From the IMG/VR virus record IMGVR_UViG_3300021138_001175, positions 1 to 24,786 of that record: DNA of 24,786 nt; one strand, given 5' to 3'. The DNA is from a virus. The notes under the pieces were generated by a model, which worked only from the letters and a program-made list of their open reading frames with translations, was not told the DNA's origin and did not search any database. Made by a program: the position numbers and the translations under genes. Shown one piece after another: positions 577 through 22,302 of this stretch; positions within the stretch are counted from its first letter, which is position 1; the number at the start of each line of letters is the position of its first letter.

Positions 577-1532
577 AAATCTTAGTTACAGGCGGCCTAG
601 GCTTTATTGGGCACAGTGTAGTTCGTGTGCTTGAGAGTTTTCGTCATGAGTGTGCTATTATCGATAGTAAAACCACCTATGGTATTATTCCACAAGCAGA
701 ATTAGATTACTTGATGCTAGAACGTATGTGCCACATACATACCCGTAATATTACTATAGCAGACATTAGTGCTCCGTTTGATGACTCGATATTTAACGGG
801 GTTGATGTTGTTATACACCTGGCCAGCTTTCCGAGACAACGAGTAGTGAATAAGAATCCAGCGCAGGGCAGTAGAGTAATGAGCGAAGGCTTGCTTAACT
901 TACTCGAGCTTGGTGTTAAACACAAGATTAAAAAGTTTGTATATGCTAGTAGCAGTATGGTTTACGGTAATTTTAATAAACACGAAATGCACGACGGCAT
1001 AGACGAGTTGTCTACGTGTAATCCTATCGGGCAGTACGCTATTATGAAATTAGCAGGGGAATGGTTAGTAAAAGACTATTCCAGGCAACACAATTTAAAC
1101 TATACTATTATTCGTCCTAGTGCTGTGTATGGGTCATACGATGTAGAAGATCGAGTAGTTAGTAAATTTCTTGCCGCTGCCATGAGAGGTGGCGAACTGA
1201 TTGTACGCGGTGCTGACGATTGTTTAGATTTTACACACGTTGACGATTGTGCCACAGGTATAGCATTGGCTGCAATCAGCGAAGACACTGCCAACGCTAC
1301 TTACAACATTAGCCGGGGTCAAACACACACGTTATTAGATGCGGCTAATCTTGCTGTTAAAATTGTTGGACAAGGCGTTATTAAAGTTATGGACCACGAT
1401 GATAACTTTCCATATCGAGGACAGTTAAGCACTATGCGGGCACGTTCAGACTTTGGGTTTTATCCTTCTGTAAATATAGAAGAAGGGTTTCAAGAATATT
1501 ATGATTGGCTTAGACAGGTGAAATATGATTGA
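573..1532 (+). CDS. NAD-dependent nucleotide-sugar epimerase/dehydratase (extended SDR)
   Basis: This is a 319-residue extended short-chain dehydrogenase/reductase, likely acting on a nucleotide-activated sugar in the cytosol. The Rossmann glycine motif GGLGFIG is at residues 7-13. The SSSMVYG strand is at about 126-132, and the catalytic pair is canonical YxxxK (Y155, K159, in QYAIMK). IRPSAVYG and the FTHVDD segment are typical of epimerases and GDP- or UDP-sugar modifying SDRs. I chose ATG 573 because it overlaps the previous stop as ATGA and begins directly at the beta strand MKILVTGG; a start at 564 would add three residues. The length is normal for the family. The substrate cannot be read from the sequence. 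It overlaps the next gene by 8 bp. Confidence 0.88.
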   Translation: MKILVTGGLGFIGHSVVRVLESFRHECAIIDSKTTYGIIPQAELDYLMLERMCHIHTRNITIADISAPFDDSIFNGVDVVIHLASFPRQRVVNKNPAQGSRVMSEGLLNLLELGVKHKIKKFVYASSSMVYGNFNKHEMHDGIDELSTCNPIGQYAIMKLAGEWLVKDYSRQHNLNYTIIRPSAVYGSYDVEDRVVSKFLAAAMRGGELIVRGADDCLDFTHVDDCATGIALAAISEDTANATYNISRGQTHTLLDAANLAVKIVGQGVIKVMDHDDNFPYRGQLSTMRARSDFGFYPSVNIEEGFQEYYDWLRQVKYD

Positions 1533-3111
1533 TGCATACTACGTTCCGGTAGAAAAAATAAATGAAGTGGCATGGGAAGGCGACTCAAAAGCATACGACT
1601 TGGCTCTGTATAATCTAGGACAAGGAGTTGACGAGTTTATCATTGTTAACCCAGCTTTTCCTAATTTTAGATTTGATGACAATGTTTCACTGCCATTGGT
1701 TAACTCTAATCGGTGTGTTGTATGGAAATATAAAGACACATGGATAGCAAAATATTTTAAACAAGATTGGATTGCTCAAAAGAAATACTGGGAGGTCAAC
1801 TGGGAGGTCAACTGGGAGGTCAACTTAGAACTTATCTGGGAACGAAATCCAGACATTGATGAATCAATAAAGTTTGACAAGCCCAGCATCAATGATTTAT
1901 ACGATTTAAACTATGAAATGACCTGGTATGCTGGCCATACATATTTGTCTTCAAATGAAAAGATTTGGGTATATAAATGTCGTTTATCACAATGTGACGT
2001 TGTTGGCAGTAAAGACATGGGCTATATTGAACCCGCACATCTTAGAATAATTCGTAATCCGGAGATTCCCGATATAGAATATTCCACAGAGTTAAAGGTA
2101 CCAGTTTACGATCTTAAGTACGAGTGTGTATGGTATCTAGATCCTAAATATAATCCCAGTAATGATAAAGTATGGGCTATTAAAGTTAAACTTCGAGGCG
2201 CAAACAAATCAATAAAAGATATGGGTTATGTTACTCCAAAAATAACCTACAACCCAGCACTTCCAGAACTAAAAATTACAGTCGACAATCGTATTCCATA
2301 CTATGAGCTAATTTATGAACATGTATGGATGCTAGACAGTGCTATTGCTAATAATGTCTGGGCAGCTAAAATTACTCCAAACAAATCAAAAGGTGTAAAG
2401 GCAGCCGGAATAGCTCAAGTTGACTTACCTAAACAATTGGACGTTATCTTTATTAGCTATAACGAACCTAATGCAGAAGAAAACTGGCAGCGGGTCAGAG
2501 AAAAAGCTCCAAAATCATTTCGCGTAAACGGTATCAAAGGCATTGTTAATGCACACAAGGCAGCCGCAGAATTGGCCACCACAGATATGTTCTATGTAGT
2601 CGACGGAGATGCTTACTTAACCGATGACTGGAATTTTGATTTTCAACCTGGTATATTTGACAGAGACTGTGTACATGTTTGGCGTAGTCGTAATCCTGTT
2701 AATGATTTAGAATATGGCTACGGCGGTGTTAAATTAATTCCACGCGAGCTCATGCTGGCCGCTGATGAATCTAATGCTGACATGACCACTAGCATTAGCG
2801 ATAAATTTAAGGTAATGCCACAGGTCAGCAATACAACTGTGTTTAATACAGATGCCTATAATGCTTGGCGCAGTGCCTTTAGAGAGTGTGCAAAATTAGC
2901 TGGTGGTATTATGCGTCGTCAACTAACTCGCGAAAGCGAATCACGGCTAGAAACATGGTGTACCATTGGTGCCGATCGACCTTATGGTGAATATGCTATT
3001 GCTGGTGCCTGTGCTGGTCGAAAATTTGGAGAAATAAATCAAGGCGATCTGACACTACTATCGCTGATTAATAACGCTGAGTGGTTACAGACTAAATTTA
3101 ATCAGCAATAA
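1525..3111 (+). CDS. Repeat-containing protein with C-terminal glycosyltransferase-like domain
   Basis: A 528-residue modular protein. Residues 1-120 form an undefined N-terminal region that contains WEVN three times (89-100), from an exact 12-nt tandem repeat. Residues about 125-305 hold three related units, each with a pattern like LxYExVWYLD, then (K/N)xVWAxK, and in the first two KDMGY and NPxxP. Residues about 305-520 resemble a GT-A-type glycosyltransferase, starting LDVIFISYNEPNAEENW and carrying a DGD motif at 360-362 suited to metal and nucleotide-sugar binding. This last domain is clearly homologous to the product of 16583-17509, including SYxEPNxEENW, AHKAAA and TTDxF. Probable role: sugar transfer, with the repeats as a binding or spacer module. 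The donor and acceptor are unknown. The gene ends 2 bp before a convergent gene, with no terminator visible. Confidence 0.75.
   Translation: MIDAYYVPVEKINEVAWEGDSKAYDLALYNLGQGVDEFIIVNPAFPNFRFDDNVSLPLVNSNRCVVWKYKDTWIAKYFKQDWIAQKKYWEVNWEVNWEVNLELIWERNPDIDESIKFDKPSINDLYDLNYEMTWYAGHTYLSSNEKIWVYKCRLSQCDVVGSKDMGYIEPAHLRIIRNPEIPDIEYSTELKVPVYDLKYECVWYLDPKYNPSNDKVWAIKVKLRGANKSIKDMGYVTPKITYNPALPELKITVDNRIPYYELIYEHVWMLDSAIANNVWAAKITPNKSKGVKAAGIAQVDLPKQLDVIFISYNEPNAEENWQRVREKAPKSFRVNGIKGIVNAHKAAAELATTDMFYVVDGDAYLTDDWNFDFQPGIFDRDCVHVWRSRNPVNDLEYGYGGVKLIPRELMLAADESNADMTTSISDKFKVMPQVSNTTVFNTDAYNAWRSAFRECAKLAGGIMRRQLTRESESRLETWCTIGADRPYGEYAIAGACAGRKFGEINQGDLTLLSLINNAEWLQTKFNQQ
1789..1824 (+). repeat. Three exact tandem copies of a 12-nt unit in frame
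   Basis: The unit TGGGAGGTCAAC occurs at 1789-1800, 1801-1812 and 1813-1824 without a mismatch. It encodes Trp-Glu-Val-Asn three times in the 528-residue protein. Because the unit is a multiple of three, gain or loss of copies would keep the frame. Confidence 0.97.
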
Positions 3112-3113
3112 AG

Positions 3114-4418
3114 TTATTCTAAATGCCAGGCTAGTTCTGGAAAGGTTTTAACAAAACTAGTTTCTCTAACACGATCAAGTCGTGAGTACCAGTCTTTATA
3201 GACACCTGGATCAATCCGAGTGCTGTCGTTTAGTGCATTGAAAAATCTATCAATGCTACTTAAAAATACCTGTGTGGCTTGCATTCTAACATGCGGTTGT
3301 TTTAACGGAATCATTTCGTCAAGATACCATTGTTTATATTCTGTTAACTTTGTTCTGAGCTCAGACTTCCAGGACAGAGATGCTGCTGAAATTGACATAT
3401 GATCCGGATATTGTAAAATGATGTTGTGTAGATCATTTTCCCACTCTGAGCTTGTATAAAACATTTGAGGTAATAAATTGTTGTCTTTGAAAAAGCCAAC
3501 GATCTCTTTGATTCTATGAGTATTCATTAAATTCCAAGTTGGAGTGATTACCCATTTATGTAGACTATCGGTAAAATTTTCATTTACCTGCCGAATATTG
3601 TTAACAATTTCGTCAAGTTGAGCAGGATATCTAATATAGTATAATCTATCCGCATCGACTTCGTCTAGACTTATTTGTAATTTAACTCGTTGCATTTTAT
3701 TCCAATAGTCTATAACATTAGTAGACTTGTATTTTAATGAAGTTAGATTAGTACTGTATGTAAAATTAATTTTGTCTACCCGGCCAACGTTGTCAATATG
3801 TTTTAAAATTTCATAATGCTCAGGTTGTATTAGTGGTTCTCCACCAGCAAAATATATGTCATCAACAATATTGGACTGCGACTTAATAGTGTTAATAAAC
3901 AGTTCTAAATCCTGGTTGCTAGTTTTAAATTTAACCTCGTCATTTTTTAAAAACATTTTATTTTCAATGTCTACCCATTTACTGCTACAACTAGGGCTAC
4001 ACATAGTACAGGCTAAATTACATAAGTTACTAAATCTGAAATCCCAACGACGAAACTCCATTTTATTAGTAAATCCAGTAGCATCTGTTGCTTGTTCAAC
4101 TAGGCTATCGTATAGGTGAGCGTACCTATTATTGATTATTCGTCTATACGAATGTTTATTGCCCCATTCTTCTTCTTTATAGCATCGGTCACAACTGTCA
4201 ACTGGAATTTCATTTAACATATTGCTACGAACTGTTTTATATTCAGACCCGTTCCAAATATTTTCAATGGTATCCTTGTATAAATTACCCATCGGTGCTC
4301 CCCATTTGCTCACGCAACAAGGCAGGATATCACCATTTGGCATCGTATGGATATGCATCCAGGTATTCATGCAAAACACTCGGCTTTCAGTTAATCTATA
4401 AACTTTTTTATTGGACAT
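3114..4418 (-). CDS. Radical SAM protein with N-terminal twitch-like cysteine region
   Basis: A 434-residue iron-sulfur enzyme. The radical SAM motif CxxxCxxC is C133, C137, C140 (CNLACTMC), which would bind the [4Fe-4S] cluster that cleaves S-adenosylmethionine. The GGEP motif is at 192-195. An N-terminal set of cysteines (C16, C34, C35, C76, C79; the pattern GDILPCC then CDRCY) resembles a twitch/SPASM-type auxiliary cluster site placed before the core, as in the family called N-terminal twitch radical SAM proteins. The C-terminus contains KTFPELAW, matching a TFPELA motif in the second radical SAM protein at 4776-6173. The start has a good ribosome site (AAAGGAAAG, 3 bp before ATG). The gene runs against its neighbours, convergent with 1525-3111 and divergent from 4523. 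The substrate is unknown; a sugar or peptide is possible. Confidence 0.85.
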   Translation of the reverse strand: MSNKKVYRLTESRVFCMNTWMHIHTMPNGDILPCCVSKWGAPMGNLYKDTIENIWNGSEYKTVRSNMLNEIPVDSCDRCYKEEEWGNKHSYRRIINNRYAHLYDSLVEQATDATGFTNKMEFRRWDFRFSNLCNLACTMCSPSCSSKWVDIENKMFLKNDEVKFKTSNQDLELFINTIKSQSNIVDDIYFAGGEPLIQPEHYEILKHIDNVGRVDKINFTYSTNLTSLKYKSTNVIDYWNKMQRVKLQISLDEVDADRLYYIRYPAQLDEIVNNIRQVNENFTDSLHKWVITPTWNLMNTHRIKEIVGFFKDNNLLPQMFYTSSEWENDLHNIILQYPDHMSISAASLSWKSELRTKLTEYKQWYLDEMIPLKQPHVRMQATQVFLSSIDRFFNALNDSTRIDPGVYKDWYSRLDRVRETSFVKTFPELAWHLE

Positions 4419-4436
4419 GCTTTCCTTTGACGTGTG

Positions 4437-4444
4437 TTATTTAA
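4437..4444 (-). promoter_or_regulatory. T4-late-like promoter element (TTAAATAA) for the radical SAM gene
   Basis: On the minus strand TTAAATAA lies about 18 bp before the start codon at 4418. It resembles the T4 late promoter box TATAAATA. A purine-rich ribosome site sits between it and the ATG. Similar TAAATA elements precede the genes starting at 4523 (+) and 22302 (-). Assigned by position and resemblance only. Confidence 0.4.
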
Positions 4445-4475
4445 GCAATAAATATTTCAGCACAAAGTAACTTTA

Positions 4476-4490
4476 GCTAAGTATATTAGC
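4476..4490. promoter_or_regulatory. Short inverted repeat in the divergent intergenic region
   Basis: GCTAA and TTAGC flank a 5-base spacer in the 104-bp gap between the divergent genes starting at 4418 (-) and 4523 (+). It could be an operator or a chance match; the arms are short and AT-rich. The rest of the gap holds only the two promoter-like elements. Confidence 0.25.
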
Positions 4491-4511
4491 ATCAACACTA
4501 TTTCTTTCATT

Positions 4512-4519
4512 CTAAATAA
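4512..4519 (+). promoter_or_regulatory. T4-late-like promoter element (CTAAATAA) adjoining a GTG start
   Basis: CTAAATAA at 4512-4519 ends three bases before the GTG start at 4523. It resembles the late box TATAAATA. No Shine-Dalgarno sequence is seen between it and the start codon, so a transcript from this element would be leaderless or nearly so. It would drive the 11.5-kb plus-strand operon. Confidence 0.4.
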
Positions 4520-4522
4520 TCC

Positions 4523-4783
4523 GTGGATATAAAAATTCAATTTAACAACTCTGATTTAGATTCTAGGTGGTTGGCTGAAATAACCAATGGCGAAGAATTA
4601 ATTCACGACATGGGCGGGTTAACCAGTAACCCAAACACATATCCAGAAGAAAAGTACATAGAATTTAATAATTGGTGCCAGGAAACACTCGGGTATAGTG
4701 CTAGATCTTCTCATCACATATTTGAGTTTAAAAACAAATCAGAACTTGACTGGTTTATACTACGTTGGCAAAATAATGAATAG
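4523..4783 (+). CDS. Small unknown protein, first gene of the long plus operon
   Basis: An 86-residue protein read from a GTG start. It is acidic and mixed hydrophilic, has no membrane segment, and ends ELDWFILRWQNNE. I do not recognise a family. The C-terminal hydrophobic/aromatic strand is loosely like the end of the small protein at 334-576 (YLKLKWG), which holds the same first-in-operon position; that may be convergence. The start has no ribosome site and lies directly after a TAAATA promoter-like element. Its stop overlaps the next start by 8 bp, giving translational coupling to the radical SAM gene. The GTG start is the least certain part. Confidence 0.65.
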   Translation: MDIKIQFNNSDLDSRWLAEITNGEELIHDMGGLTSNPNTYPEEKYIEFNNWCQETLGYSARSSHHIFEFKNKSELDWFILRWQNNE

Positions 4784-6173
4784 ATTAGAATTTTGGAAAA
4801 AAGAGAATTTGGATACTATTAGTCCTAGTTTCTGTGCAGCAAAATGGAAGCAGGTAACTATACATCTGCAGAACGGACATACTCATAGTTGTCACCATCC
4901 GTCACCACATAAAATACCACTTGATGAACTACGAGCTAATCCAGGTGCTTTGCACAATACTAATCATAAAAAACAACAAAGAAAATTAATGTTAGAAGGC
5001 GAGCGTCCTGCTGAGTGCGACTATTGCTGGCGTGTAGAGGATAACAATTTAATAAGCGATCGTGTTCACAAATCAATGATGCCTTGGTCCGAATCATATA
5101 TTCCAGACATTGTTTCTAAACCCTGGGATGACGATGTAGTGCCAAGCTATGTAGAAATTAGTTTTGGTCACGTGTGTAATTTTAAATGTAGCTATTGTTC
5201 TCCGCACATTAGCTCTAAATGGATGGAGGAGATTGAAAAATTTGGACCTTACCCAACATTAAGCAAATATAATAATCTTGAACATTATGCCAACACAGGA
5301 ATGACACCTATTCCTAATAATGAAGATAATCCTTATGTAGATGCATTCTGGGAATGGTGGCCTACTATTTCTGACAAGCTAGAGCACTTTAGAATTACCG
5401 GTGGGGAACCATTACTAAACAAGAACACTTATAAGTTCCTTGACGATATAATTGCAAATCCTCGTCCTAATTTGGATGTTAGCATTAATGCTAACATGTG
5501 TCCACCCGACGATCTGCTCGATAAGTTCATTGAACAAGCTAAAATTATTGTTAGCGAAAATAAAGTCAAAACATTCAGGATCTTTACATCTGCCGAGGCC
5601 TATGGAAAGCAAGCTGAATATATTCGTCACGGTATGGACTATGATAAATGGCTATTTAATATTGAGCGCATGTTTAAAGAAGTTCCAGGAATTATCTTTA
5701 CTGTAATGAGTACTTACAATGCATTAAGTGTGCCAAGTTACACAAGATTTCTTGAGGACATACTTAGATTAAAGAAACAATATTATAATCCTACGATCTA
5801 CAACAAAAGTCCAATAACAATAGACATTCCTTATCTGCGGCATCCTACACATCAAAGTATTTTTATACTAACAGAAGACTTTGTAGAGCGGATAGCCGAT
5901 CAAGTTACTTTTATGTTTACTCATTTAGAAAACAAAGGGTGGCACGGTAGTGCTCATGTAGGGTTTTATGACTACGAAGCAGAAGGTCTTAGACGCATAT
6001 ATGAAATGTTGCTTACACATCCTAAAAATCTATTGGAATCCTACAACAATTATAATCGTTTTAACTTTAAGGCATTTGTAGACGAGCATGATCGCCGAAG
6101 AGGAACTAATTTTTTAGAAACCTTTCCGGAACTGGCAGAATTTTATGAGCATTGTTCTAGTATAGTAATATGA
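4776..6173 (+). CDS. Second radical SAM protein with N-terminal twitch-like region
   Basis: A 465-residue radical SAM enzyme, paralogous in layout to the one at 3114-4418. The core motif CNFKCSYC gives C134, C138, C141, and TGGEP is at 208-212. The N-terminal region has C20, C39, C81 and C84 (CDYCW). Where the paralogue has PCC, this protein has SCHH, so the auxiliary cluster ligands may differ. The C-terminus carries ETFPELAEF, matching the paralogue's KTFPELAW. I chose ATG 4776, which overlaps the previous stop by 8 bp; longer in-frame starts lie wholly inside the upstream gene. The next gene overlaps by 4 bp (ATGA). Expected reaction: SAM-dependent radical chemistry on an unknown sugar or peptide. 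Confidence 0.85.
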   Translation: MNRLEFWKKENLDTISPSFCAAKWKQVTIHLQNGHTHSCHHPSPHKIPLDELRANPGALHNTNHKKQQRKLMLEGERPAECDYCWRVEDNNLISDRVHKSMMPWSESYIPDIVSKPWDDDVVPSYVEISFGHVCNFKCSYCSPHISSKWMEEIEKFGPYPTLSKYNNLEHYANTGMTPIPNNEDNPYVDAFWEWWPTISDKLEHFRITGGEPLLNKNTYKFLDDIIANPRPNLDVSINANMCPPDDLLDKFIEQAKIIVSENKVKTFRIFTSAEAYGKQAEYIRHGMDYDKWLFNIERMFKEVPGIIFTVMSTYNALSVPSYTRFLEDILRLKKQYYNPTIYNKSPITIDIPYLRHPTHQSIFILTEDFVERIADQVTFMFTHLENKGWHGSAHVGFYDYEAEGLRRIYEMLLTHPKNLLESYNNYNRFNFKAFVDEHDRRRGTNFLETFPELAEFYEHCSSIVI

Positions 6174-7591
6174 AACATCCATTAAATTTTTTATACGATT
6201 ACGTGTTTCCGACGTTTATATTGCCTAATGCATTGATACCCGAATATGCAATATTGAACTATATGAATAGTCAGTATTCCACTGAGCATACTGACAACTG
6301 TTTCACTGACCCAAATGCAACCAACGTTTCAACTTCTGTTTTTAATAACAAGCTGGGTTGGATGTGGCCAAACAGTATCAGGCACAGTGGTGGCAATATA
6401 ATGTCGCCGTTGTACACAGAGGAGATCATTGAAATCAATGAACAACCTTTATATTTTGGAAGAAAAATTTATCCCAAGTATGTTTATCCAATTTCAATTA
6501 CACCGTTTTTGGACGAGTTTGCCTGCTCTAATTTAAGACCTGGTAATAAACTAAATGGAGAATACTTTTGGAAACACATGTCTCTGCAAGCCTTGGAGGA
6601 TGCCCAGCAAGGACGAGCACTAATATTCATTGACTACGGACAAGAGAATTTCATTGAAAAAGAAACGTACGAAAGTCTGAATCACGCAATAAAGCTCAGT
6701 GGAATTCCAAAAGAACAGATAGTGCTGGCGTTTAACACGCTCAATGGTCGAGAACTATATGAATCTTGGTTTAGCCCTGAAGAACAAAGATTAACAGTGT
6801 GTAACTGGCCACACGTAATGGGAGAATCATCTAGATTTTATGCAACTAACCCGAGCCGACGATTAACTGTTGAACAATTTCTTGCTACTGAAGATACTAA
6901 AAGAAAAAATCATTTTTTATTTAAAATAAGAAACAACCGCCATCATAGAATAGCACTACTATATAAATTAGTATCAGACAATCTATTAGACAAAGGAGAC
7001 TGGTCTTGTCTAACAAAATTAGAGTTCAACGAAGCAACAACTGATTACTATTCTAAAATATACCAATTTGAGTTTGATATTGAGGCTGTTAAAACAATAT
7101 GCAATTTGACTCCGCATGTATTGCAATCTGAGCCAGCCATTCGCCACGAGTCAGTTAGTGCATGGACTGATGATAATACTAAACCGCATATTGATTCTTA
7201 TTTCTATATTTGTACAGAAACATTTGTACATGGCGAACATAAATCGCTAACCGAAAAAGTGTTTAAACCAATAGCAAACTTCCAACCGTTTTTATTTGTA
7301 GCATATCCGGGCGCACTGGCATTATTGCGTCGTTTAGGATTTCGCACATTCAGTCCATTTATCGACGAAAGTTATGACGATGAACCCGATGAAGGCAATC
7401 GACTGAATATGATTTATAAAGAAATTACCAAATTGTGTGCAATGACTACAGACGAAATACATGCTTGGTATTGGTCCATGAAGGATATAATGATTCACAA
7501 TCATAACCATCTCATAACGATGTACAAAAATAATCCTCCTGGTAGAGACCTAATAAATTATCTAAAAAAAGGAACTGGGTATGAGCTATAA
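6170..7591 (+). CDS. GT10-like putative glycosyltransferase (paralogue A)
   Basis: A 473-residue cytosolic protein. The N-terminal half has no motif I recognise. The C-terminal part (residues about 250-405) contains FKIRNNRHHRIALLY, then YICTETFVHG, TEKVFKPIANFQPF and FSPFIDESYDDE. The same string of motifs occurs in 9440-10801. The TEKxFxPIxNxQPF segment recalls the donor-binding region of GT10 fucosyltransferases and related GT-B enzymes, where a TEK motif precedes the region that holds the nucleotide sugar. This is a distant resemblance, so glycosyltransfer is probable rather than shown. It is coupled at both ends: ATGA with the upstream radical SAM gene and an 11-bp overlap with the RmlC-like gene. 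Confidence 0.7.
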   Translation: MKHPLNFLYDYVFPTFILPNALIPEYAILNYMNSQYSTEHTDNCFTDPNATNVSTSVFNNKLGWMWPNSIRHSGGNIMSPLYTEEIIEINEQPLYFGRKIYPKYVYPISITPFLDEFACSNLRPGNKLNGEYFWKHMSLQALEDAQQGRALIFIDYGQENFIEKETYESLNHAIKLSGIPKEQIVLAFNTLNGRELYESWFSPEEQRLTVCNWPHVMGESSRFYATNPSRRLTVEQFLATEDTKRKNHFLFKIRNNRHHRIALLYKLVSDNLLDKGDWSCLTKLEFNEATTDYYSKIYQFEFDIEAVKTICNLTPHVLQSEPAIRHESVSAWTDDNTKPHIDSYFYICTETFVHGEHKSLTEKVFKPIANFQPFLFVAYPGALALLRRLGFRTFSPFIDESYDDEPDEGNRLNMIYKEITKLCAMTTDEIHAWYWSMKDIMIHNHNHLITMYKNNPPGRDLINYLKKGTGYEL

Positions 7592-8132: not shown

Positions 8133-8833
8133 AACAGTATGACATCCTACTATCATTTGGTTGCAGCTTTACCGAAGGCGGCGGATTAAATGCGCCCGAA
8201 TACCACAAGTTTTTAAATTCTGGTCTAAAACAAGAAGAAGAATTAAACGAATATGCAACCATGCATTCATTTCCAAAGTATCTAGCTGATCGATTAAATT
8301 GCAAATTTATAAATTTTGGTAGAGGAGCGGCCAGCAACGAGTACATATTTCAAACTGCTTACAATAATTGTCGGGCACATGCTGGTCAGAAAATACTGGT
8401 AACACTACAAACATCAATCTTATCACGCTTATTTTTAACGTCTGCCGCAGGCGAAAATGAATACCTGATAAATACTCCTGTAGGACAACCCAAATACGCT
8501 GCTGATTTTTACACACAATACCTTGATTTATTCTTTAATGAAAATACCGAATACTCTAAACTACTTAGAAATATAGATTTATTTCAAGCATGGTTCAGCG
8601 CAAACGATATTGATTTTGTATTTTTAGCCTGGGAAGCTCTGAGTGAGCTACCAGAAAAATATTTTTTTAAATTTCCAATCAATGACGGATCTTTTAAAGA
8701 GTATGCTAGAATCAATCAACTTTTAATAAAAGATATTCCTGGTATACCATTTAAAGATTATCACCTGACCGAGCAGGGCAACCGACAAGTTGCTGATTTA
8801 CTATTTGAACACATAAAGAGAAAATATGATTAA
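8129..8833 (+). CDS. SGNH-hydrolase-like protein (first of three)
   Basis: A 234-residue protein. Near the N-terminus LLSFGCSFTEGGG replaces the usual GDS block, with candidate nucleophile S13. Near the C-terminus, DYHLTEQGN supplies a DxH block (D210, H212) followed by the usual ExGN. GRGAASNEYI (about residues 66-75) fits block II. Such enzymes hydrolyse or transfer acyl esters, for instance O-acetyl groups on sugars. The ATG at 8129 overlaps the previous stop (ATGA) and begins just before the first strand; the longer frame from 8090 would add 13 residues inside the RmlC-like gene. No signal peptide, so it acts in the cytosol. An O-acyl esterase or transferase acting on the cassette's sugar is an inference. 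Confidence 0.75.
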   Translation: MKQYDILLSFGCSFTEGGGLNAPEYHKFLNSGLKQEEELNEYATMHSFPKYLADRLNCKFINFGRGAASNEYIFQTAYNNCRAHAGQKILVTLQTSILSRLFLTSAAGENEYLINTPVGQPKYAADFYTQYLDLFFNENTEYSKLLRNIDLFQAWFSANDIDFVFLAWEALSELPEKYFFKFPINDGSFKEYARINQLLIKDIPGIPFKDYHLTEQGNRQVADLLFEHIKRKYD

Positions 8834-9455
8834 AAACCTTGAACAATACGACATAGTCAGAACGATAGACTATAGCAAAGACGATTTAATTGCGTTTGAA
8901 AATCAAATCATCGCCCACTGGGAAGGCGCAAAGATTAGAGGACCGATACACTTGTCCAACGGTAACGAAGATAGTCTTATCGAAATATTCAAACGAATTA
9001 AAACTACCGATTGGATATTTTCAACTTGGCGCAGTCACTATCATGCGTTGTTAAAAGGCATTGACCCCCAGTGGATTGAGGAAGAAATTCTCAAAGGAAA
9101 ATCTATTAGTGTTTGCAATATTGATGAACAATTTTATTCTTCTGCTATCGTCGGTGGAACATTGCCTATTGCACTAGGATTGGCCAAGGCATTAAAAGAC
9201 AATAACAGCAGTGACAAGATATGGTGTTTTATTGGGGACATGAGTTTTGAAAGCGGTCTGTTCTACGAAGTTCACAAGTATGCACGAAATTTTGATCTGC
9301 CATTGTATTTTGTTGTCGAAGACAACGGTGTTTCAACTTATACTCCAACTGAAGCAACCTGGAATGTAAAACGTGAAGTTCCGGACGATGTAATTCACTA
9401 CGATTATAAATCAAAATATCCACACTACGGAACTGGAAAATGGATCGTATTTTAA
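8826..9455 (+). CDS. Miniature E1-alpha-like thiamine diphosphate-binding subunit
   Basis: A 209-residue protein resembling the TPP-binding half of 2-oxoacid dehydrogenase E1-alpha or transketolase. RSHYHALLKGIDP (69-81) matches the E1-alpha RxHxHxLxxGxxP region. IVGGTLPIALGLA (108-120) matches the usual GxVGxxxPxAxGxA. GDMSFESG (137-144) then EDNG (165-168) reproduces the GDG-x(26-28)-NN motif, with D138 and N167 at the family spacing as Mg ligands. The chain ends soon after, so it is much shorter than E1-alpha (commonly over 300 residues) and lacks the later loop region. The partner is probably the beta-like protein at 15500-16039. It overlaps the upstream gene by 8 bp and the downstream gene by 16 bp. 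The substrate is unknown. Confidence 0.82.
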   Translation: MIKNLEQYDIVRTIDYSKDDLIAFENQIIAHWEGAKIRGPIHLSNGNEDSLIEIFKRIKTTDWIFSTWRSHYHALLKGIDPQWIEEEILKGKSISVCNIDEQFYSSAIVGGTLPIALGLAKALKDNNSSDKIWCFIGDMSFESGLFYEVHKYARNFDLPLYFVVEDNGVSTYTPTEATWNVKREVPDDVIHYDYKSKYPHYGTGKWIVF

Positions 9456-15499: not shown

Positions 15500-16039
15500 A
15501 TGACAACACCACAAATATCGCCGTATAAAAACGGGTTAATCGAAGCAATGACATTCTTGGGCGAACAAGATGACACTATATTTATAGGTCAACAAATTGT
15601 CTGGGCCGGTAATCCAATGAGTACTACCTTAGTTAATGTTCCAAAAACAAAAATGATAGAAGTTCCTGTACTAGAAGAAACTCAAATGGGCATGAGCTTA
15701 GGGCTTGCTATGGCGGGTCGAACTGTTGTTAGTTTTTATCCTCGTTGGAACTTTTTAATCTGTGCAGCTAACCAATTGATTAATCATTTAGACAAATACG
15801 AAGAAATGACTGGTAAGCAGGCCAACATTATTATACGAGTAGCCAAGGGTGCAGATATTCCACTTGATCCGGGTCCACAGCATAAAGCTAATTTCTTTGC
15901 AGAGTTTGAAGCGATGTGCCCAAACGTACATTTTTATGATTTAAAAACACCCGACGGAATGCTAGACACTTATCAAGCTGCTTATAAGAGTGGCGGCATA
16001 CATATTTTAGCCGAATACCCAGAATTGTATAACGGTTAG
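15500..16039 (+). CDS. Miniature E1-beta-like (transketolase pyrimidine-domain) subunit
   Basis: A 179-residue protein matching only the pyrimidine-binding domain of E1-beta or transketolase. DTIFIGQQI (25-33) opens the fold. IEVPVLEETQMGMSLGLAMAG (53-73) corresponds to the PLAE...GxAxG region and puts E59 in the place of the glutamate that activates thiamine. GPQHKANF gives H128 where E1-beta has its active-site His (LHS). FYDLKTPDGMLDTYQAAYKSGGIHIL matches the closing strands. The C-terminal transketolase domain (about 130 more residues) is absent, and the gene ends naturally with TAG. Probably pairs with 8826-9455 to form a compact TPP enzyme. It is the last gene of the plus operon and stops 1 bp from a convergent gene. 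Confidence 0.82.
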   Translation: MTTPQISPYKNGLIEAMTFLGEQDDTIFIGQQIVWAGNPMSTTLVNVPKTKMIEVPVLEETQMGMSLGLAMAGRTVVSFYPRWNFLICAANQLINHLDKYEEMTGKQANIIIRVAKGADIPLDPGPQHKANFFAEFEAMCPNVHFYDLKTPDGMLDTYQAAYKSGGIHILAEYPELYNG

Positions 16040-16040
16040 T

Positions 16041-16583
16041 CTACTTAGTACCAATTACCATATAGCGTGTAAACGACCACTCTGGGTAGACAAAGTTTAA
16101 TTTTCCACTATATGCTATCTCTGTTAATGGGTAGTGTTTGATAAAATCTTCAACAGTCGGTGAGTCTACTACGTGGTCATCGTGCGGCATATTGTTGCCT
16201 TGTATAATAACGCGAGTTCCAACAGTAATATTATCAAACCAATCCATACTATCAAAATGCTCACTACTGGTATTAATAATTAAATCCGGCAGGGACGGTG
16301 GACTTTGATTACAGTCTACAGTAAAGGCCTTAAATTGCCATTCTTTAATAACCCAGTTTTCATTGATCATGTCTGCTATTGTTTCGCAAGCAGGATCCAC
16401 ATCAAAACTTTCAATGCGACCAACTTGAAACTTTTCTCGACTTAGTAATAAAAATGCTAGTAGACCATACCAGCCACCATAGATATGTGTTAAATTACTA
16501 GTCCAACCTAATGCTTCTAACTCACGACACAGCCATAGTTTACTGTCTATTTGGCCATTGCTAAATGCATCTTTATCAAGCAT
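16041..16583 (-). CDS. SAM-dependent methyltransferase-like protein
   Basis: A 180-residue protein with a class I methyltransferase look: IYGGWYG (34-40) in the place of the glycine-rich motif I, then RIESFDVDP (56-64) with acidic residues ending strand 2 as for ribose binding, and LIINTSSEHFD (101-111) at strand 4. It is short for the class, so it may be a minimal Rossmann core without a substrate cap. A sugar or protein methyltransferase is the simplest reading, but a non-catalytic relative is possible. Its start overlaps the previous stop as TAATG, so translation is coupled to the glycosyltransferase-like gene. It ends 1 bp from the convergent E1-beta-like gene. Confidence 0.65.
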   Translation of the reverse strand: MLDKDAFSNGQIDSKLWLCRELEALGWTSNLTHIYGGWYGLLAFLLLSREKFQVGRIESFDVDPACETIADMINENWVIKEWQFKAFTVDCNQSPPSLPDLIINTSSEHFDSMDWFDNITVGTRVIIQGNNMPHDDHVVDSPTVEDFIKHYPLTEIAYSGKLNFVYPEWSFTRYMVIGTK

Positions 16584-17509
16584 TACCAGCCCTCTAGTTT
16601 ACGAATAACATCCATCTCGGTAATCATAATGCCTTTGTTTTGATGAGATTTAGCACGATGATCTTTAAAAAATTTACTAGCATTAGCATCAAGCATTACA
16701 ACAGGTAAGTCGAGCTGACCGACTAACTCCTCGGCAACAAGGCCTGCAATATTTTCAGGATTGTCTCCTTTGTTAATAGTTCCAAATAATTCTTTTAGGG
16801 CATCAAAATCCTGTACTAGTCGATAATCCCATGTAGGTGTAATCATAGTCATATAAGTTCCCATACGGGCGCCAAGTATAGACCATATGCCATGCTCAAC
16901 ATCGCGTCCAACATTATGCCATATTGTAAGATTGTCTAAGTTACGTCGATTAACCTGTGCTTTAAAATCAACGATAGTAGGACGGGCGCCGCGATTAAGA
17001 CACATCTTTACACCTTCACGGAAGCCGGCTCGCCATGCCTGGAATGGTGTTGAATTAATGTAAGTAGTAGAGTAACAATCATACATGGCCGTGTAATTAG
17101 GATAAAAACAAAACTCTACATCATTTTCTACTGCACCATCACTTGCTTCGTGTGTACGCATGGCGTAGACAAAGTCCTTGGTCCAGCACGATACTCCACC
17201 ATTCCCATAGACTAGTCCATTGGTGTGATTACGAGCTTTCCAACGGAATACATTATTGGCTGTGGTATCATCTAGCATTAGATATTGATCGAAGAAACTT
17301 TCGTCTGGGATATTATCACCATCAATTAAAATAAATCTATCTGTTGTACTAGCATCTGCAGCCGCTTTATGTGCGGCATCACTGCCTTTAACTCCGTCAA
17401 CTCGTACTGCCCACGGTACCATTTGCTTGATTTTAAGCCAGTTTTCTTCTTTGTTAGGTTCGTCGTAACTTAGATATACACAATCTAAGTCTGCTATGTC
17501 AATGTTCAT
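16583..17509 (-). CDS. GT-A-like putative glycosyltransferase, homologue of the C-terminal domain at 2440-3111
   Basis: A 308-residue protein. LDCVYLSYDEPNKEENW (8-24), AHKAAADASTTDRF (46-59) and the DGDN motif (63-66) line up with the C-terminal domain of the 528-residue protein at 1525-3111, which has SYNEPNAEENW, AHKAAAELATTDMF and DGDA. The shared section continues through YGxGGV and the FxAWRxxFRE segment. The DGD is probably the metal and nucleotide-sugar site. I chose ATG 17509 because it overlaps the previous stop as ATGA and has GGAAG ahead of it; ATG 17521 would add four residues. It has no repeat module, unlike its homologue. The end TAATG couples it to the methyltransferase-like gene. 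Confidence 0.75.
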   Translation of the reverse strand: MNIDIADLDCVYLSYDEPNKEENWLKIKQMVPWAVRVDGVKGSDAAHKAAADASTTDRFILIDGDNIPDESFFDQYLMLDDTTANNVFRWKARNHTNGLVYGNGGVSCWTKDFVYAMRTHEASDGAVENDVEFCFYPNYTAMYDCYSTTYINSTPFQAWRAGFREGVKMCLNRGARPTIVDFKAQVNRRNLDNLTIWHNVGRDVEHGIWSILGARMGTYMTMITPTWDYRLVQDFDALKELFGTINKGDNPENIAGLVAEELVGQLDLPVVMLDANASKFFKDHRAKSHQNKGIMITEMDVIRKLEGW

Positions 17510-17841
17510 CGTAACTTCCATTTTATATGTGGTTCAGACAGATCAACTACTATACTAATATTGTTAGGATGGCAGGGTGTGCCAAGCTCGCCGGGTTTCA
17601 ATTTTAATACAGTATTGGTTACAAGGTATTTTATTTGACCATCAACTACACGAACGTTCGTAGGCGACAGTCCAAATGTTGCTCGATCTATCTCTAAATA
17701 TTTACCGGGTAAATCTTCCATGGAGTAGAATAACGGTAATCCATTGTCATCATAATATAGTCGATAGATATGAGGTTTAGGTTCTGGTAAAGGCGCAAGA
17801 GCAGCCCAAAATTCTTCTTCAGTTAACGGAGTATCACTCAT
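17506..17841 (-). CDS. Small conserved phage protein of unknown function
   Basis: A 111-residue protein: a short Pro-rich start (LAPLPEPKPHIYRLYYDD), then a compact beta-rich region (FYSMEDLPGKYLEID, TNVRVVDGQIKYL) and an end IVVDLSEPHIKWKLR. I have an impression of similar proteins in uncultured aquatic phages but know no function. No membrane segment or metal site is visible. The start has a modest ribosome site (AGAG) and overlaps the upstream gene by 8 bp. The downstream overlap is ATGA, so it is co-translated with the glycosyltransferase-like gene. Confidence 0.72.
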   Translation of the reverse strand: MSDTPLTEEEFWAALAPLPEPKPHIYRLYYDDNGLPLFYSMEDLPGKYLEIDRATFGLSPTNVRVVDGQIKYLVTNTVLKLKPGELGTPCHPNNISIVVDLSEPHIKWKLR

Positions 17842-18112
17842 CGTTGCTCTTTTGATTGTTTCGCTTTTCTTGAATGGTTAATTTATCTTTGCGGGCACGA
17901 TTGTGCCTAGGATTTCCGCAAAGTGTGCAGTGAGGTTGGCCACAGTCCATGACATGATGCTTGGCTAGTCTGTGTGGCTGTGCTTCATCAATGCGTTTAC
18001 TTGCGGCACCAAAGTTTTTATGAGATTTTATAATACCAAGTTGTTTCTTAATAGCTACCCAAGCACGATGCATACGTGTTTTATGTTTAACTTTATCTTC
18101 TTCTTTACTCAT
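17834..18112 (-). CDS. Small basic Cys/His-rich protein (putative zinc knuckle)
   Basis: A 92-residue very basic protein. The centre reads HHVMDCGQPHCTLCGNPR: C57, H61, C62 and C65, with H52 and H53 upstream, could bind one zinc ion. The rest is rich in Lys, Arg and His, suggesting nucleic-acid or ribosome contact. It looks like a small conserved phage protein whose function is unknown to me. I prefer ATG 18112, preceded by AAAGGA at 9 bp, over ATG 18121, which directly abuts that site and adds three residues. It overlaps the upstream gene by 8 bp and the downstream gene by 8 bp. Confidence 0.7.
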   Translation of the reverse strand: MSKEEDKVKHKTRMHRAWVAIKKQLGIIKSHKNFGAASKRIDEAQPHRLAKHHVMDCGQPHCTLCGNPRHNRARKDKLTIQEKRNNQKSNDE

Positions 18113-18845
18113 TTTCAACATCCTTTACGTGATAATGAACTAACCCCCATTGCGCTACTGTATTAATTCTAATACCAGGGTTAGTATGTTCCCATACTAA
18201 TTCATCTGTCCAATTTTCTGCTGTAGTCGGAATCATACCCTTCTTCATATGTATCATAGTTGGACCATGGCCCAAAGGTAATGTCACACGTTCTGGACCC
18301 AGTATTACTGCGGCCATAGCATATACTACGTCAGTTGATGGCACTTCCTCAGGAAACTTTAACAATGTTCGATAAGTAGACCACTGCTCAAATATATTTT
18401 TAACTAAGCCAAAGAACTCTTGTGCCAGTGGACTACGGCGCCAGTAGGTTATACCATTATATACATCGGGTAAATTATTACGATCAAACAATTGACGGTA
18501 TTGCCTTGATCGTCCAGGTTGATCATAAAAGTCTCTACAACCTTGACTAATAACGACTTCGTGAGTTTTGAACAATTCCCACCAATGATCAATAGGACTG
18601 GCGCACCACATGTCTGCTTCTAATTTAATTGTTTCTTGATAAGGACTGGCTGTATAGCATTGCCAGTCATTGGCATAACCACCTTGATCTCCGTGGGGCA
18701 ACATTTCTTTTGTAAGGATAGTTACGTTAGCATCTGGATGCCACTCACGTATAGTGCCGGCAAGACGATGGGCACAGGCCATATAGTCTGTGGTGTCAGA
18801 GTTTATGGCTGGAATAAGATATCCACGTTCAGCTGGCGTTGGCAA
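18105..18845 (-). CDS. GT-A-like nucleotide-sugar transferase-like protein, TTG start
   Basis: A 246-residue protein. GYLIPAINSDTTDYMACAHRL opens a Rossmann-like half, ANVTILTKE is a second strand, and KLEADMWC (74-81) places an ExD acid motif (E76, D78) where GT-A enzymes have DxD. The later segment VYNGITYWRRSP is typical of GT8-like or related folds. The reading frame has a TAG stop 12 bp before TTG 18845, and a strong AGGAG lies 7 bp before that TTG, so TTG is the real start. It overlaps the partner gene upstream by 17 bp. Together with 18829-19629 it may form a two-protein transferase system; the substrate is unknown. Confidence 0.7.
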   Translation of the reverse strand: MPTPAERGYLIPAINSDTTDYMACAHRLAGTIREWHPDANVTILTKEMLPHGDQGGYANDWQCYTASPYQETIKLEADMWCASPIDHWWELFKTHEVVISQGCRDFYDQPGRSRQYRQLFDRNNLPDVYNGITYWRRSPLAQEFFGLVKNIFEQWSTYRTLLKFPEEVPSTDVVYAMAAVILGPERVTLPLGHGPTMIHMKKGMIPTTAENWTDELVWEHTNPGIRINTVAQWGLVHYHVKDVENE

Positions 18846-19629
18846 TGATCGCTCCTAAATGTCCTTTGCCCATGGCATGAAAGTCTTGTTTAAGTATAAT
18901 CCAGCGTGGCTTTTGTTGTTGGTTAACATAGTCTACACGGTATGTATCTTGATCAATTTGAGTTAGTTGATGCTCGTGACTGACACTGGCTAAACTCCAG
19001 GGTATGCCAGGCGAGATTAACGTGTGCCCACTGGTAATGTTTAATGCTATACTAAGTGCGTAGTCATTGCGGTAAGTCGTGCGGCCAATACCATAAAGAT
19101 TGCAATAGTGATTCCAATTATTTTTAATCATCGTCATTAAATCAAAGATCATTTTGGCATAGGAACTACGACGGAACATCATTACAGTGGCCCAGGACAT
19201 TGGCATGCGATTACGACCAAATGTATTATGTTCGTCAAAGCCAGGATGGTTAGTAACATCATAGGCCCGTCCGTGAGCAACAAAGTCGTGTTTAATTGCA
19301 AGCACAGTTTTTAACTGATCCGACGCTACTACATAATCAGCATCTAATACCAAGGTCTGTTGCCAAGGTGATAGTGCGTATGCATCTACGCGATTGCCGT
19401 TAAACCATGTAACGCTAGAATCAATATCGGCAAATTTGCGTGTCTGCTGACTGGTTGTAGCGGCATAAATTGTCTGCTCAAAATAATAATTAGCAGGCGG
19501 TACTTGATCAGTTACCACAGCCACTGGCAACCCAAGATGACGCCGTATATTCTTTGCTGACCAGTTGGCCATAGCAAGATAATCTATGTGCTCATTATTA
19601 TAAGCGAAAATTAATACGCCTGTGGTCAT
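18829..19629 (-). CDS. GT-A-like nucleotide-sugar transferase-like protein
   Basis: A 266-residue protein. VLIFAYNNEHIDYLAMANWSA opens the fold, LPVAVVTDQ is the second strand, and the strand LVLDADYV (93-100) ends in DAD (D96, D98), the metal-binding motif of GT-A folds. ATVMMFRRSSYAKMIFDLM follows as the usual acceptor-side helix. It shares layout with its downstream neighbour (18105-18845): strand, helix, acid motif, xFRRS or xWRRS. No signal peptide. Start ATG 19629 overlaps the previous stop as ATGA. Confidence 0.72.
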   Translation of the reverse strand: MTTGVLIFAYNNEHIDYLAMANWSAKNIRRHLGLPVAVVTDQVPPANYYFEQTIYAATTSQQTRKFADIDSSVTWFNGNRVDAYALSPWQQTLVLDADYVVASDQLKTVLAIKHDFVAHGRAYDVTNHPGFDEHNTFGRNRMPMSWATVMMFRRSSYAKMIFDLMTMIKNNWNHYCNLYGIGRTTYRNDYALSIALNITSGHTLISPGIPWSLASVSHEHQLTQIDQDTYRVDYVNQQQKPRWIILKQDFHAMGKGHLGAIIANAS

Positions 19630-19940
19630 CTATTTCGACTAAGTGCTTCGTATTCTTCGGTCCAAGATTTCATTTGTTCTTGCCAACGTTCTTGTGCTAG
19701 TGTTAATAGTTCTCGATAATCAACAGCAACGGGAGTGTCGTATAAATCAAGCAAATATAATCCTTGCTGACCAACAGTTAACGATGCCGTTAAAATATTA
19801 ATTAATTCGGGACCAGCCTGCCAAAGTCCGCCAGCATGAGCAAAAGTTAACCGGGCTTGATATTTTTCTTTTAAGGTACGCTTGGCAGCTTCGTGATCAA
19901 AACGAGCACGAACGGTGGCTACAATGTTTTCAGTTGTCAT
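19626..19940 (-). CDS. Small conserved phage protein, first gene of the minus accessory operon
   Basis: A 104-residue protein with helical ends (RTLKEKYQARLTFAHAGGLW at the front, LTLAQERWQEQMKSWTEEYE at the back) and a short beta middle (GLYLLDLYDTPVAVDY). I do not know a function. A TATAAT box ends six bases before its ATG and no Shine-Dalgarno sequence fits, so the message is probably leaderless. It shares ATGA with the following GT-A-like gene. This mirrors the arrangement of the small first genes at 334 and 4523. Confidence 0.75.
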   Translation of the reverse strand: MTTENIVATVRARFDHEAAKRTLKEKYQARLTFAHAGGLWQAGPELINILTASLTVGQQGLYLLDLYDTPVAVDYRELLTLAQERWQEQMKSWTEEYEALSRNR

Positions 19941-19946
19941 AGGTTT

Positions 19947-19975
19947 ATTATACTAGTAATTGTACATAAAGTAAA
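19947..19975 (-). promoter_or_regulatory. Sigma-70-type promoter (TTTACT, 17 bp, TATAAT)
   Basis: Minus strand: -35-like TTTACT at 19975-19970, a 17-bp spacer, and a perfect TATAAT at 19952-19947. The ATG begins six bases downstream at 19940. The -35 overlaps the stem of the terminator at 19973-19992, so termination of the structural operon and initiation of the accessory operon share DNA. Confidence 0.65.
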
Positions 19976-19992
19976 GCCCCTTGCGGGGCTTT
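19973..19992 (-). terminator. Terminator after the structural operon
   Basis: An 8-bp perfect stem (19973-19980 with 19985-19992) has a four-base loop that reads GCAA on the minus strand. It ends 21 bp after the stop of 20014-21006. The T tract on the minus strand is interrupted (CTTTACTTTA), so it may be partly leaky. On the plus strand the stem is followed by only a short T run. Confidence 0.7.
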
Positions 19993-20013
19993 TGGTAAGA
20001 CTGTTTGTGTAGT

Positions 20014-21006
20014 TTAGGCTACAGTTGACGCAACAGTTGGGGTGCCCCATGTGTTGGTCAAGTTGGTTGTTTCTGGTGGGAAATATGTAACTATAGTAGC
20101 CGGTGCTGTACCCCAAGAAATTGGATTTCCAGTTGTAGCAGTTCCGCCATTGATATTTGCTGGTGCGCCTGGGTTAGCATCACCGTTGTCATACCAGGTT
20201 GTAGTCAATGTAAGAACTCCTGAACCGTTTTGTGATGCGTTAACTTGTACATAGTTACTGGTATAGGCTGCACCTGTGTCAAATTGTTTAAAAATGGTTG
20301 TTGGTGATGATGTTAATTGATTGTAACCTGTTCCAGTTGTTAATGTGGTCGGAGTACCTGTACCACCTGTTTTAAATGTACCTTGAACTGCAGAACCTTG
20401 CGGAAGATTTTTACTTGTAGCATCAGCTGAGAGATAAACAGCAGAAGGTAGTTTAGCGCCAGCGCCAGCAGCACCAACAAATGCGTTCCACTCTGTATCA
20501 GCTACAGTACCTGTACTTGATTTGCCCCATTGAATGTTAATAACACCGCCTGCACCAAAGAAACTTGTTGCGGCTGCGGCGTTGGCAAAGGTAACAGTAT
20601 CAGTAAATGTGATTGTCCAAGCTGCTGCACCAGAACCTGTTGCGGCTGTTTTACTAACAGTACCAGTAAAGGCTGTGTATTGTGTGCCTTGAGTAGCGGC
20701 ATTAAAACGATTGTTATAACAATTTGTAATGTCTGTATTAACTGCAGACTGTGCAGTAATAGTACTACCTGCTGTTGGGCCTGTACGTGAAGTAATTGAT
20801 GTGCCTTGGTGTGTGGCCATTGATGCAATTGTTGTATTCAACGTTGCCCATTGTGTAGCTGTTACTGTACCTGCTGTAGATACGGTTGCTAATGCTGTTT
20901 GTCCATATGTTGTGTTCCACGTTGCGTTAACGTTGGCTCCAGCTGTAGTGCTAACAAAACCATTATAGTCTGCTGCTTGTATTAATCCGCCCGATGAGTA
21001 TGTCAT
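20014..21006 (-). CDS. Phage structural protein, low-complexity Thr/Ala/Gly-rich (tail/fibre type)
   Basis: A 330-residue protein, very rich in Thr, Ala, Gly, Ser and Asn with hardly any charge. It starts MTYSSGGLIQAADYNGFVST and contains ATWNTTYGQTA and WGKSSTGTVADTEWNAFVGA. This composition is typical of virion surface or tail-fibre-like proteins of marine myoviruses, exposed outside the cell. No catalytic motif is seen. It has a clear ribosome site (AAGGATTAAAAAGA). It lies downstream of a tail-fibre-like gene and ends the structural operon before a terminator. The exact virion position is not known. Confidence 0.65.
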   Translation of the reverse strand: MTYSSGGLIQAADYNGFVSTTAGANVNATWNTTYGQTALATVSTAGTVTATQWATLNTTIASMATHQGTSITSRTGPTAGSTITAQSAVNTDITNCYNNRFNAATQGTQYTAFTGTVSKTAATGSGAAAWTITFTDTVTFANAAAATSFFGAGGVINIQWGKSSTGTVADTEWNAFVGAAGAGAKLPSAVYLSADATSKNLPQGSAVQGTFKTGGTGTPTTLTTGTGYNQLTSSPTTIFKQFDTGAAYTSNYVQVNASQNGSGVLTLTTTWYDNGDANPGAPANINGGTATTGNPISWGTAPATIVTYFPPETTNLTNTWGTPTVASTVA

Positions 21007-21018
21007 TCTTTTTAATCC

Positions 21019-22302
21019 TTAATTTATTGTAACAATAGCTTCAACAGTGCCTTCGCCGCTGTCTACTTTATTTCTAAGTGCGCGGCCAATCACATTAAAT
21101 GCTGTCGCTTCACCTGGTTGTGCAGCTCTGGCTAGGCCATTGCCAGCTGATACTAATCGATCGCCCTTACTTACTCGACCAATGGTTCTTACCGGTACTC
21201 TTCCAGTCATTGCAACTGGGGGATGTGTATCATTTGTTCCGGCATTACTATTCATCAAATATGCTGCTCTAGTACTTATGACTCCAAAGACATTTTCACT
21301 TAAATCTGTGTTAACTTGAGTAATTTCAGCTGATCCACCCAATTCAACCACTGTTCCAGGAACAAGCGCAACATCTGACTCAAAGCGTTCTGCTAAGTCG
21401 GCATAGTTGGCATCAATTTGCAAACCAGTGATAACACCAGTGGCACCATTAATAGACATCGCTGTAGTTGGTGTTCCGGCAATATTAACACTAAAATTAA
21501 TATTACCATTTGTGTCTTGATTGGCAATAGTTGCTGTGGTGCCAGATATACTCAAACGAAGATCACTACTTGCACCAATTGATAGACCGGTATTGTTAAG
21601 AATACCCACTGTGCCTGTAGTCGAAGTGTTGGCGTCAGAGCGCATAAATTGACTGCTGGTTAACGTATTCAATGCTGATGCATTTGTAGCTGTGCCTGTA
21701 AATACAGCGCCAGCTACTCCGCCCACTCCATAGCTCATTGTATATCCAGGATATACCATTGCAAATCCTGCAATCGGTGTTGCTGGAGTAAAGGCTGGAT
21801 CTTTACTAATCATACCAACGATTGTGCCGCCTGCATATAATTCAACTACATAGTGGGTACTGCCAATATTGTCAAGAATTGAAGCAGAAACTGCACCCGT
21901 TGTGCCACCTGGTGTGTTTGAGCCAGGCCCAACTACTAACCAAGTACTGCCAGTCCATACATTTAATTGTTGTGTGCTTGTATTGTACCACAGGTCCCCG
22001 GTAACATTACCAGTTGGCGCTGTGCTTTGTGCGGTAGTAGAACTAATAGTTTTAAATGCACTACCATTATACACTTTGAGTAACGAGTTGCCAGAATCCC
22101 ACCAGAGCTGTCCGGTTAATGGAGCACCAGGCGGTGTAGTATTTGATGAATTTTCTAGAAGATGTACAAAGTTTGTATCTAGAAATGCACCGTATCCTGC
22201 ATAATTCTGCCCTACTAGCGTCATTGAGCTAGCGGTATTGATAGTACCATCTGCTACAACAGCAAATATGGTTCCATCAGTTAAGTTAATTGTATATGAC
22301 AT
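21019..22302 (-). CDS. Phage tail-fibre-like structural protein
   Basis: A 427-residue protein. The N-terminal 90 residues (YTINLTDGTIFAVVADGTIN, then LVGQNYAGYG, HLLENSSN, GQLWWDS) match the attachment-type N-terminus of fibre-like proteins in T4-like aquatic phages. A repeat of the GxLWxxxxxxLxVxxGSxW unit follows at about 65-115. The C-terminus (ADLAERFESDVALVPG, then ENVFGVISTRAAYLMN, GRVPVRTIGRVSKGDRLV, AFNVIGRAL) is a conserved fibre-tip domain, perhaps related to peptidase_G2-like C-terminal domains. It has AAAGGACGGAG ahead of ATG and a TAAATA promoter-like element further up. Probable role: distal tail structure. Confidence 0.75.
   Translation of the reverse strand: MSYTINLTDGTIFAVVADGTINTASSMTLVGQNYAGYGAFLDTNFVHLLENSSNTTPPGAPLTGQLWWDSGNSLLKVYNGSAFKTISSTTAQSTAPTGNVTGDLWYNTSTQQLNVWTGSTWLVVGPGSNTPGGTTGAVSASILDNIGSTHYVVELYAGGTIVGMISKDPAFTPATPIAGFAMVYPGYTMSYGVGGVAGAVFTGTATNASALNTLTSSQFMRSDANTSTTGTVGILNNTGLSIGASSDLRLSISGTTATIANQDTNGNINFSVNIAGTPTTAMSINGATGVITGLQIDANYADLAERFESDVALVPGTVVELGGSAEITQVNTDLSENVFGVISTRAAYLMNSNAGTNDTHPPVAMTGRVPVRTIGRVSKGDRLVSAGNGLARAAQPGEATAFNVIGRALRNKVDSGEGTVEAIVTIN

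Follow-up and report, generated by a model that had tools for sequence, protein, structure and literature searches.

The locus considered here raises the question of what two radical SAM enzymes encoded back to back, on opposite strands, are doing in a virus. P1 and P2 diverge within a 24,786-base record of an uncultivated virus (the whole of this stretch is called the window below). The initial annotation had read them as a pair with different auxiliary ligand sets, acting in a two-step or two-substrate reaction of a glycan pathway. We asked to which family they belong, whether their auxiliary sites differ, whether they occur together elsewhere, and which substrate their neighbours point to.

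Two members of the N_Twi_rSAM family

Both ORFs were found as divergent genes with CxxxCxxC cores, each with the Pfam radical SAM domain PF04055 above cut-off, an N-terminal Cys-rich region and a terminal TFPELA, as the initial annotation had it:

3114..4418, minus strand: P1, 434 amino acids, N_Twi_rSAM, CC type (PCC)
3999..4022, minus strand: P1 radical SAM core CxxxCxxC, C133/C137/C140 (sequence and alignment, PF04055)
4182..4373, minus strand: P1 predicted N-terminal twitch ligands C16, C34, C76 and C79, with C35 as the extra Cys of PCC (BtrN twitch alignment, conservation)
3129..3146, minus strand: P1 TFPELA, residues 425-430 (sequence)
4523..4783, plus strand: small ORF, 86 amino acids, 8-nt overlap with the P2 start
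4776..6173, plus strand: P2, 465 amino acids, N_Twi_rSAM, CHH type (SCHH)
4833..5027, plus strand: P2 predicted N-terminal twitch ligands C20, C39, C81 and C84, with HSCHHP at residues 37-42 (conservation)
5175..5198, plus strand: P2 radical SAM core CxxxCxxC, C134/C138/C141 (sequence and alignment, PF04055)
6120..6137, plus strand: P2 TFPELA, residues 449-454, where the last helix begins (AF2)

P1 and P2 are fresh members of NCBIfam NF033640 (N_Twi_rSAM), an existing named family without an assigned function. Against a cut-off of 170 bits, P1 scores 309.4 bits (model positions 2-395 of 398) and P2 337.3 bits (1-398 of 398), so that both match nearly the whole model, and nothing was found that excludes either. 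With a mutual identity of about 20% they are ancient paralogues, and they mostly occur apart. For P2 the ATG at 4776 is preferred over an upstream GTG at 4698, because the small ORF at 4523-4783 overlaps this ATG by 8 nt; in five viral loci a homologue of the small ORF immediately precedes that of P2. No experimental study of N-terminal-twitch enzymes came up in searches of the literature.

One twitch domain and one set of auxiliary cysteines

By homology the N-terminal region of P1 and P2 is a genuine twitch domain. Both proteins carry the motif C-x9-15-G-x4-C-gap-C-x2-C, which corresponds to the first four SPASM cysteines and to one auxiliary cluster; the region matches Pfam SPASM in P1, and in a profile of the P1 group residues 8-81 align with the C-terminal twitch of BtrN (E 1e-6). 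In BtrN, a butirosin biosynthetic enzyme, a single [4Fe-4S] cluster is fully ligated by four cysteines of the twitch domain (PMC6231123). These four ligands align with those of P1; the twitch is C-terminal in BtrN whereas it is N-terminal in P1 and P2, and the match of P1 to this dehydrogenase of amino-cyclitol oxidation is confined to the twitch domain.

The alignment with N-terminal twitch relatives shows the N-terminal cysteines to be conserved: C16/C34/C76/C79 of P1 and C20/C39/C81/C84 of P2 are near-invariant among 83 family members, and all four are kept in 532 of the 562 relatives with an intact core (from a set of 566). The seven-cysteine SPASM motif of two auxiliary clusters is absent, the four auxiliary cysteines being what is conserved family-wide. 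Since these four are shared throughout the family and the BtrN twitch aligns to the same residues, the ligand set of P1 and P2 is identical, and the proposal of different sets does not hold. Nor does the exchange of PCC for SCHH mark a cluster difference as had been suggested, as it sits beside the second ligand and is a subfamily signature. In BtrN the Cys of LPCF aligns with the first C of PCC, and a Phe stands in place of P1 C35.

The residue or residues after the second ligand define three types, CC, CHH and CYH; the labels are taken from these very residues, and the purity of each type is thus by definition. A label-free tree nonetheless puts CC and CHH/CYH on separate branches, with one CC member falling on the CHH/CYH side (support 0.993); all trees reported here are quick trees only. 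One of the types may perhaps hold a non-canonical cluster. Around an auxiliary ligand of P2 lies a His-rich stretch, GHTHSCHHP..H (residues 35-45, positions 4878-4910), which is strongly conserved in the CHH type and might serve cluster tuning or substrate binding.

The TFPEL region

The TFPELA motif had been regarded as a possible docking tail shared by P1 and P2. Its Pro is kept in 439 of 469 alignable relatives, Phe being the commonest residue before it, and in the AF2 model of P2 (pLDDT 95.6) the region belongs to an ordered, confidently modelled and helical C-terminal part. This family-wide conservation rules out chance for the P and F of TFPEL, as it does for the cysteines, and the motif is not limited to these two proteins. 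It argues equally against a docking element peculiar to the pair, and the modelled position in a well-ordered helical region fits a structural role, with docking as a further possible function.

A dedicated pair or pieces of a larger cassette

The adjacency of P1 and P2 in the window, where their genes diverge, is what first suggests a dedicated pair, with different auxiliary clusters and a reaction in two steps. Elsewhere, 36 dereplicated viral cases have a CHH gene directly before a CC gene on the same strand, and a CHH-type enzyme can be naturally fused with a second radical SAM enzyme. In this fusion, from a Bdellovibrio MAG, one ORF of 834 aa (L090:7971-10475) encodes both enzymes, the second being of CC type. 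The close relatives of P1 tell against this reading: in five loci (L003-L007) the neighbouring family members within 10 kb are all of CC type, and the four records with its closest relatives that were scanned whole hold exactly two members over cut-off each, with CC-type partners only. A single member over cut-off was found in 24 of 36 P2-type records; the scanned records are fragments, so that such counts per record are lower bounds, and the samples were ranked by similarity, which biases them as a measure of how often the P1 and P2 types co-occur. Because the close relatives of P1 lack a CHH partner and most P2-type records hold one member, the dedicated pair is unsupported, and with identical ligand cysteines in both enzymes we consider it improbable. 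The multi-step idea survives in a weaker form, given this fusion and the tight synteny that larger cassettes keep between CHH/CYH and CC types. Two CC-type ORFs, in L152 (851 aa) and L192 (981 aa), may also be fusions.

It is this conserved cassette that is worth following. A profile search for P1-like proteins gave a best 80 viral loci, which were chosen by similarity, so that frequencies among them are not prevalence; at least three family members are present in 74 of the 76 distinct loci. A cassette of this larger kind is common to many uncultivated phages and some Bdellovibrio-like bacteria. The core in uncultivated phages, all on the same strand, is a GT-A-like gene followed by CYH, CHH and three CC genes. 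The usual order among the best 80, from which variants exist, is v6-v3-v2-v2-v5-v0-CYH-(v1)-CHH-CC-CC-CC-v4-carbamoyltransferase, and in one example cassette all five radical SAM enzymes are over the family cut-off. The carbamoyltransferase (v8) is a TobZ/GdmN-like O-carbamoyltransferase which often follows the core in extended cassettes; v11, an amidinotransferase akin to AGAT and StrB, occurs in 11 of the 80 loci, and certain loci carry extra radical SAM genes, namely v7 or the B12-binding v10. In quick trees P1 groups with the first CC enzymes of the cassette (CC1; support 0.996) and P2 with its CYH enzymes (support 0.887). The window holds v0, v5, v2, v2, v3 and v6 as a minus-strand block (16583-21006) and a v0-like domain at 1525-3111; because these are retained, it has the appearance of a rearranged and reduced cassette. 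P1 and P2 look like two loose, independently assorting pieces of it, one CC1-like and one CYH-like, rather than an exclusive pair. In 31 loci the final CC enzyme is followed by v4, a protein of about 350 aa (for instance L178:11689-12729), which had no match in Pfam, PHROGs or NCBIfam.

Partner genes and flanks

The partner genes of the window are as follows:

1525..3111, plus strand: 528-aa protein with a v0-type (GT-A-like) domain (v0 HMM, E 1.2e-80)
6170..7591, plus strand: 473-aa v1-family protein, 4-nt overlap with the P2 stop
16583..17521, minus strand: v0 proper, GT-A-fold protein with a DGD motif (AF2 pLDDT 92.6, fold matches, synteny)
17506..22302, minus strand: upstream-flank block of v5, v2, v2 (GT8-like by motif), v3, v6 and a tail-fibre-like protein (HMM matches)

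In fold comparison residues 6-156 of v0 resemble GT-A proteins and related nucleotidyltransferases (B4GALNT1, Z 9.4), and they include an invariant D-x-D. The v0 gene lies directly upstream of 45 of 136 dereplicated viral CHH/CYH enzymes as against 3 of 237 CC enzymes, with ends that mostly overlap or are closely spaced, and relatives of P2 frequently overlap a GT-A-fold gene. In the window the 528-aa v0-domain gene is on the same strand as P2, with P1 lying between. P2 itself is the first gene of a run that includes rmlC-like and epimerase/dehydratase genes. The block at 17506..22302 is syntenic with the upstream flank of the cassette, and its last gene (21019-22302) has PHROG tail/virion matches. 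The initial description of these enzymes as twitch-type radical SAM proteins among glycan genes is supported.

The GT10 label given to the v1-family genes, to which 9440-10801 also belongs by HMM match, received no confirmation from Pfam, PHROGs or PDB. Compared with solved structures, v1 returned only TAL repeats, with no single stretch passing alone, and this match was discarded as an artefact. The T4 late promoter motif TATAAATA had 1 match against 3.65 expected, and sigma-70-like sites were no better than in shuffles. Among annotated phages, P2, v0 and v6 found no match and P1 a single weak one. Two short proteins of the window (8826-9455 and 15500-16039) resemble parts of a TPP-dependent E1/transketolase, perhaps a sugar-building enzyme; they are far apart here, and homologues of both occur in several related loci.

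Cellular homologues

Nearly all homologues of P2 from cells come from Bdellovibrionota MAGs; contigs in bins assigned to Neomarinimicrobiota, Pelagibacterales, Beijerinckia and other groups also gave matches, and some of these contigs may belong to phages. Nine cellular genomes that were scanned hold from 1 to 20 members each (E 1e-20 or better), with a dense array on one contig. Arrays were seen on Bdellovibrionota contigs at L317-L319 (G043:C192) and L320 (G047:C7), one of them with Asp/Asn beta-hydroxylase-like, amidinotransferase and UDPGP-like neighbours. From a reading of the sequences, L320 adjoins an ATP synthase operon and L317 a DnaG-like primase gene, and because of these core genes both arrays look chromosomal. 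Some Bdellovibrionota arrays lack recognisable glycosyltransferases.

Possible role and substrate

The reading that we put forward, with the balance about even, is that P1 and P2 belong to the host-recognition island of a T4-like phage, where they tailor a glycan or sugar in separable radical steps. Each enzyme would combine a SAM-cleaving [4Fe-4S] site with one N-terminal twitch domain; this domain probably binds a single additional Fe-S cluster, for which both enzymes use the same four cysteines, placed by homology. They would probably catalyse separate steps, for instance by oxidising, dehydrating or epimerising a sugar or glycan assembled or transferred by the neighbouring glycosyltransferases, and might in this way alter the surface of the virion or of the infected host chemically. 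Pelagimyophage host-recognition clusters combine glycosyltransferase genes with radical SAM cassettes (PMC7029224) and one T4-like marine genome has 12 radical SAM genes (PMC5332604); P1 and P2 share this setting, a hypervariable island rich in tail-fibre and glycosyltransferase genes. Placement in such an island is weak evidence for a glycan role, since host-recognition islands are rich in glycosyltransferases anyway. Against the glycan reading also speak the P2 homologues of context B (L046, L063, L067 and similar loci), whose neighbours are DNA ligase, Bax1-like and structural genes, with no obvious glycan genes.

An alternative that we regard as possible, though rather unlikely, is modification of a protein of the phage or host, such as a receptor-binding protein or tail fibre, which the GT-A partner would also glycosylate. 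Peptides are the substrates of many SPASM/twitch enzymes, and SkfB (Z 14.0) and SuiB (Z 12.7), whose SPASM/twitch is C-terminal, are among the best fold matches of the P2 barrel. The surroundings are also suggestive, as the v0-P2 block comes after tail-fibre-like genes in context A and P2 lies near a fibre-like gene in context B. On the other hand, a search of the cassettes for small ORFs gave no RiPP-type precursor tied to the radical SAM genes, although a distant or unlinked one may exist. One candidate, a micro-ORF of 33-40 aa ending in KRDPFIYK, recurs in 26 loci; in an independent scan a carbamoyltransferase follows it in 61 of the 64 cases with room, but it occurs with a radical SAM gene in only 19 of 44, and because it thus tracks the carbamoyltransferase it was rejected as a precursor or substrate. 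Examples of it are L117:12812-12913, L118:14077-14181 and L121:12453-12557, and it often overlaps the start of the next gene. Reading the substrate from the fold search was likewise dropped, since the peptide-acting SkfB and SuiB match the P2 barrel about as well as the sugar- or nucleotide-acting DesII, BlsE and MoaA.

Phages hypermodify DNA with glycosyltransferases and carbamoyltransferases, and MoaA, BlsE and viperin folds are close to P2, so that DNA or nucleoside hypermodification also comes into consideration. We think this improbable for the present enzymes: the genes sit among tail-fibre and sugar-nucleotide genes, and the cellular arrays in Bdellovibrionota look chromosomal.

Extending the preferred tailoring of glycans or sugars, we can sketch tentatively, and as a minority view of our own, a poly-radical pathway of 3-7 N-terminal-twitch enzymes in uncultivated T4-like phages and in Bdellovibrionota chromosomes (up to 20 copies per genome). 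It would build heavily tailored surface sugars like those of aminoglycosides, to which butirosin belongs, and in phages it would be coupled to the GT-A glycosyltransferase and, in many cases, to carbamoyl- and amidinotransferases. The types, the gene order and the GT-A-fold coupling give a concrete handle on the substrate of the family: if the cassette tailors sugars, radical chemistry is added to phage surface modification, and if it does not, it points to a novel modification of phage proteins or nucleotides. Three tandem N_Twi_rSAM-like genes, of which two were tested and both are over cut-off, are present in the GenBank-deposited Vibrio phage K566 (OZ196521.1, L196:8705-13107), a possible experimental system.
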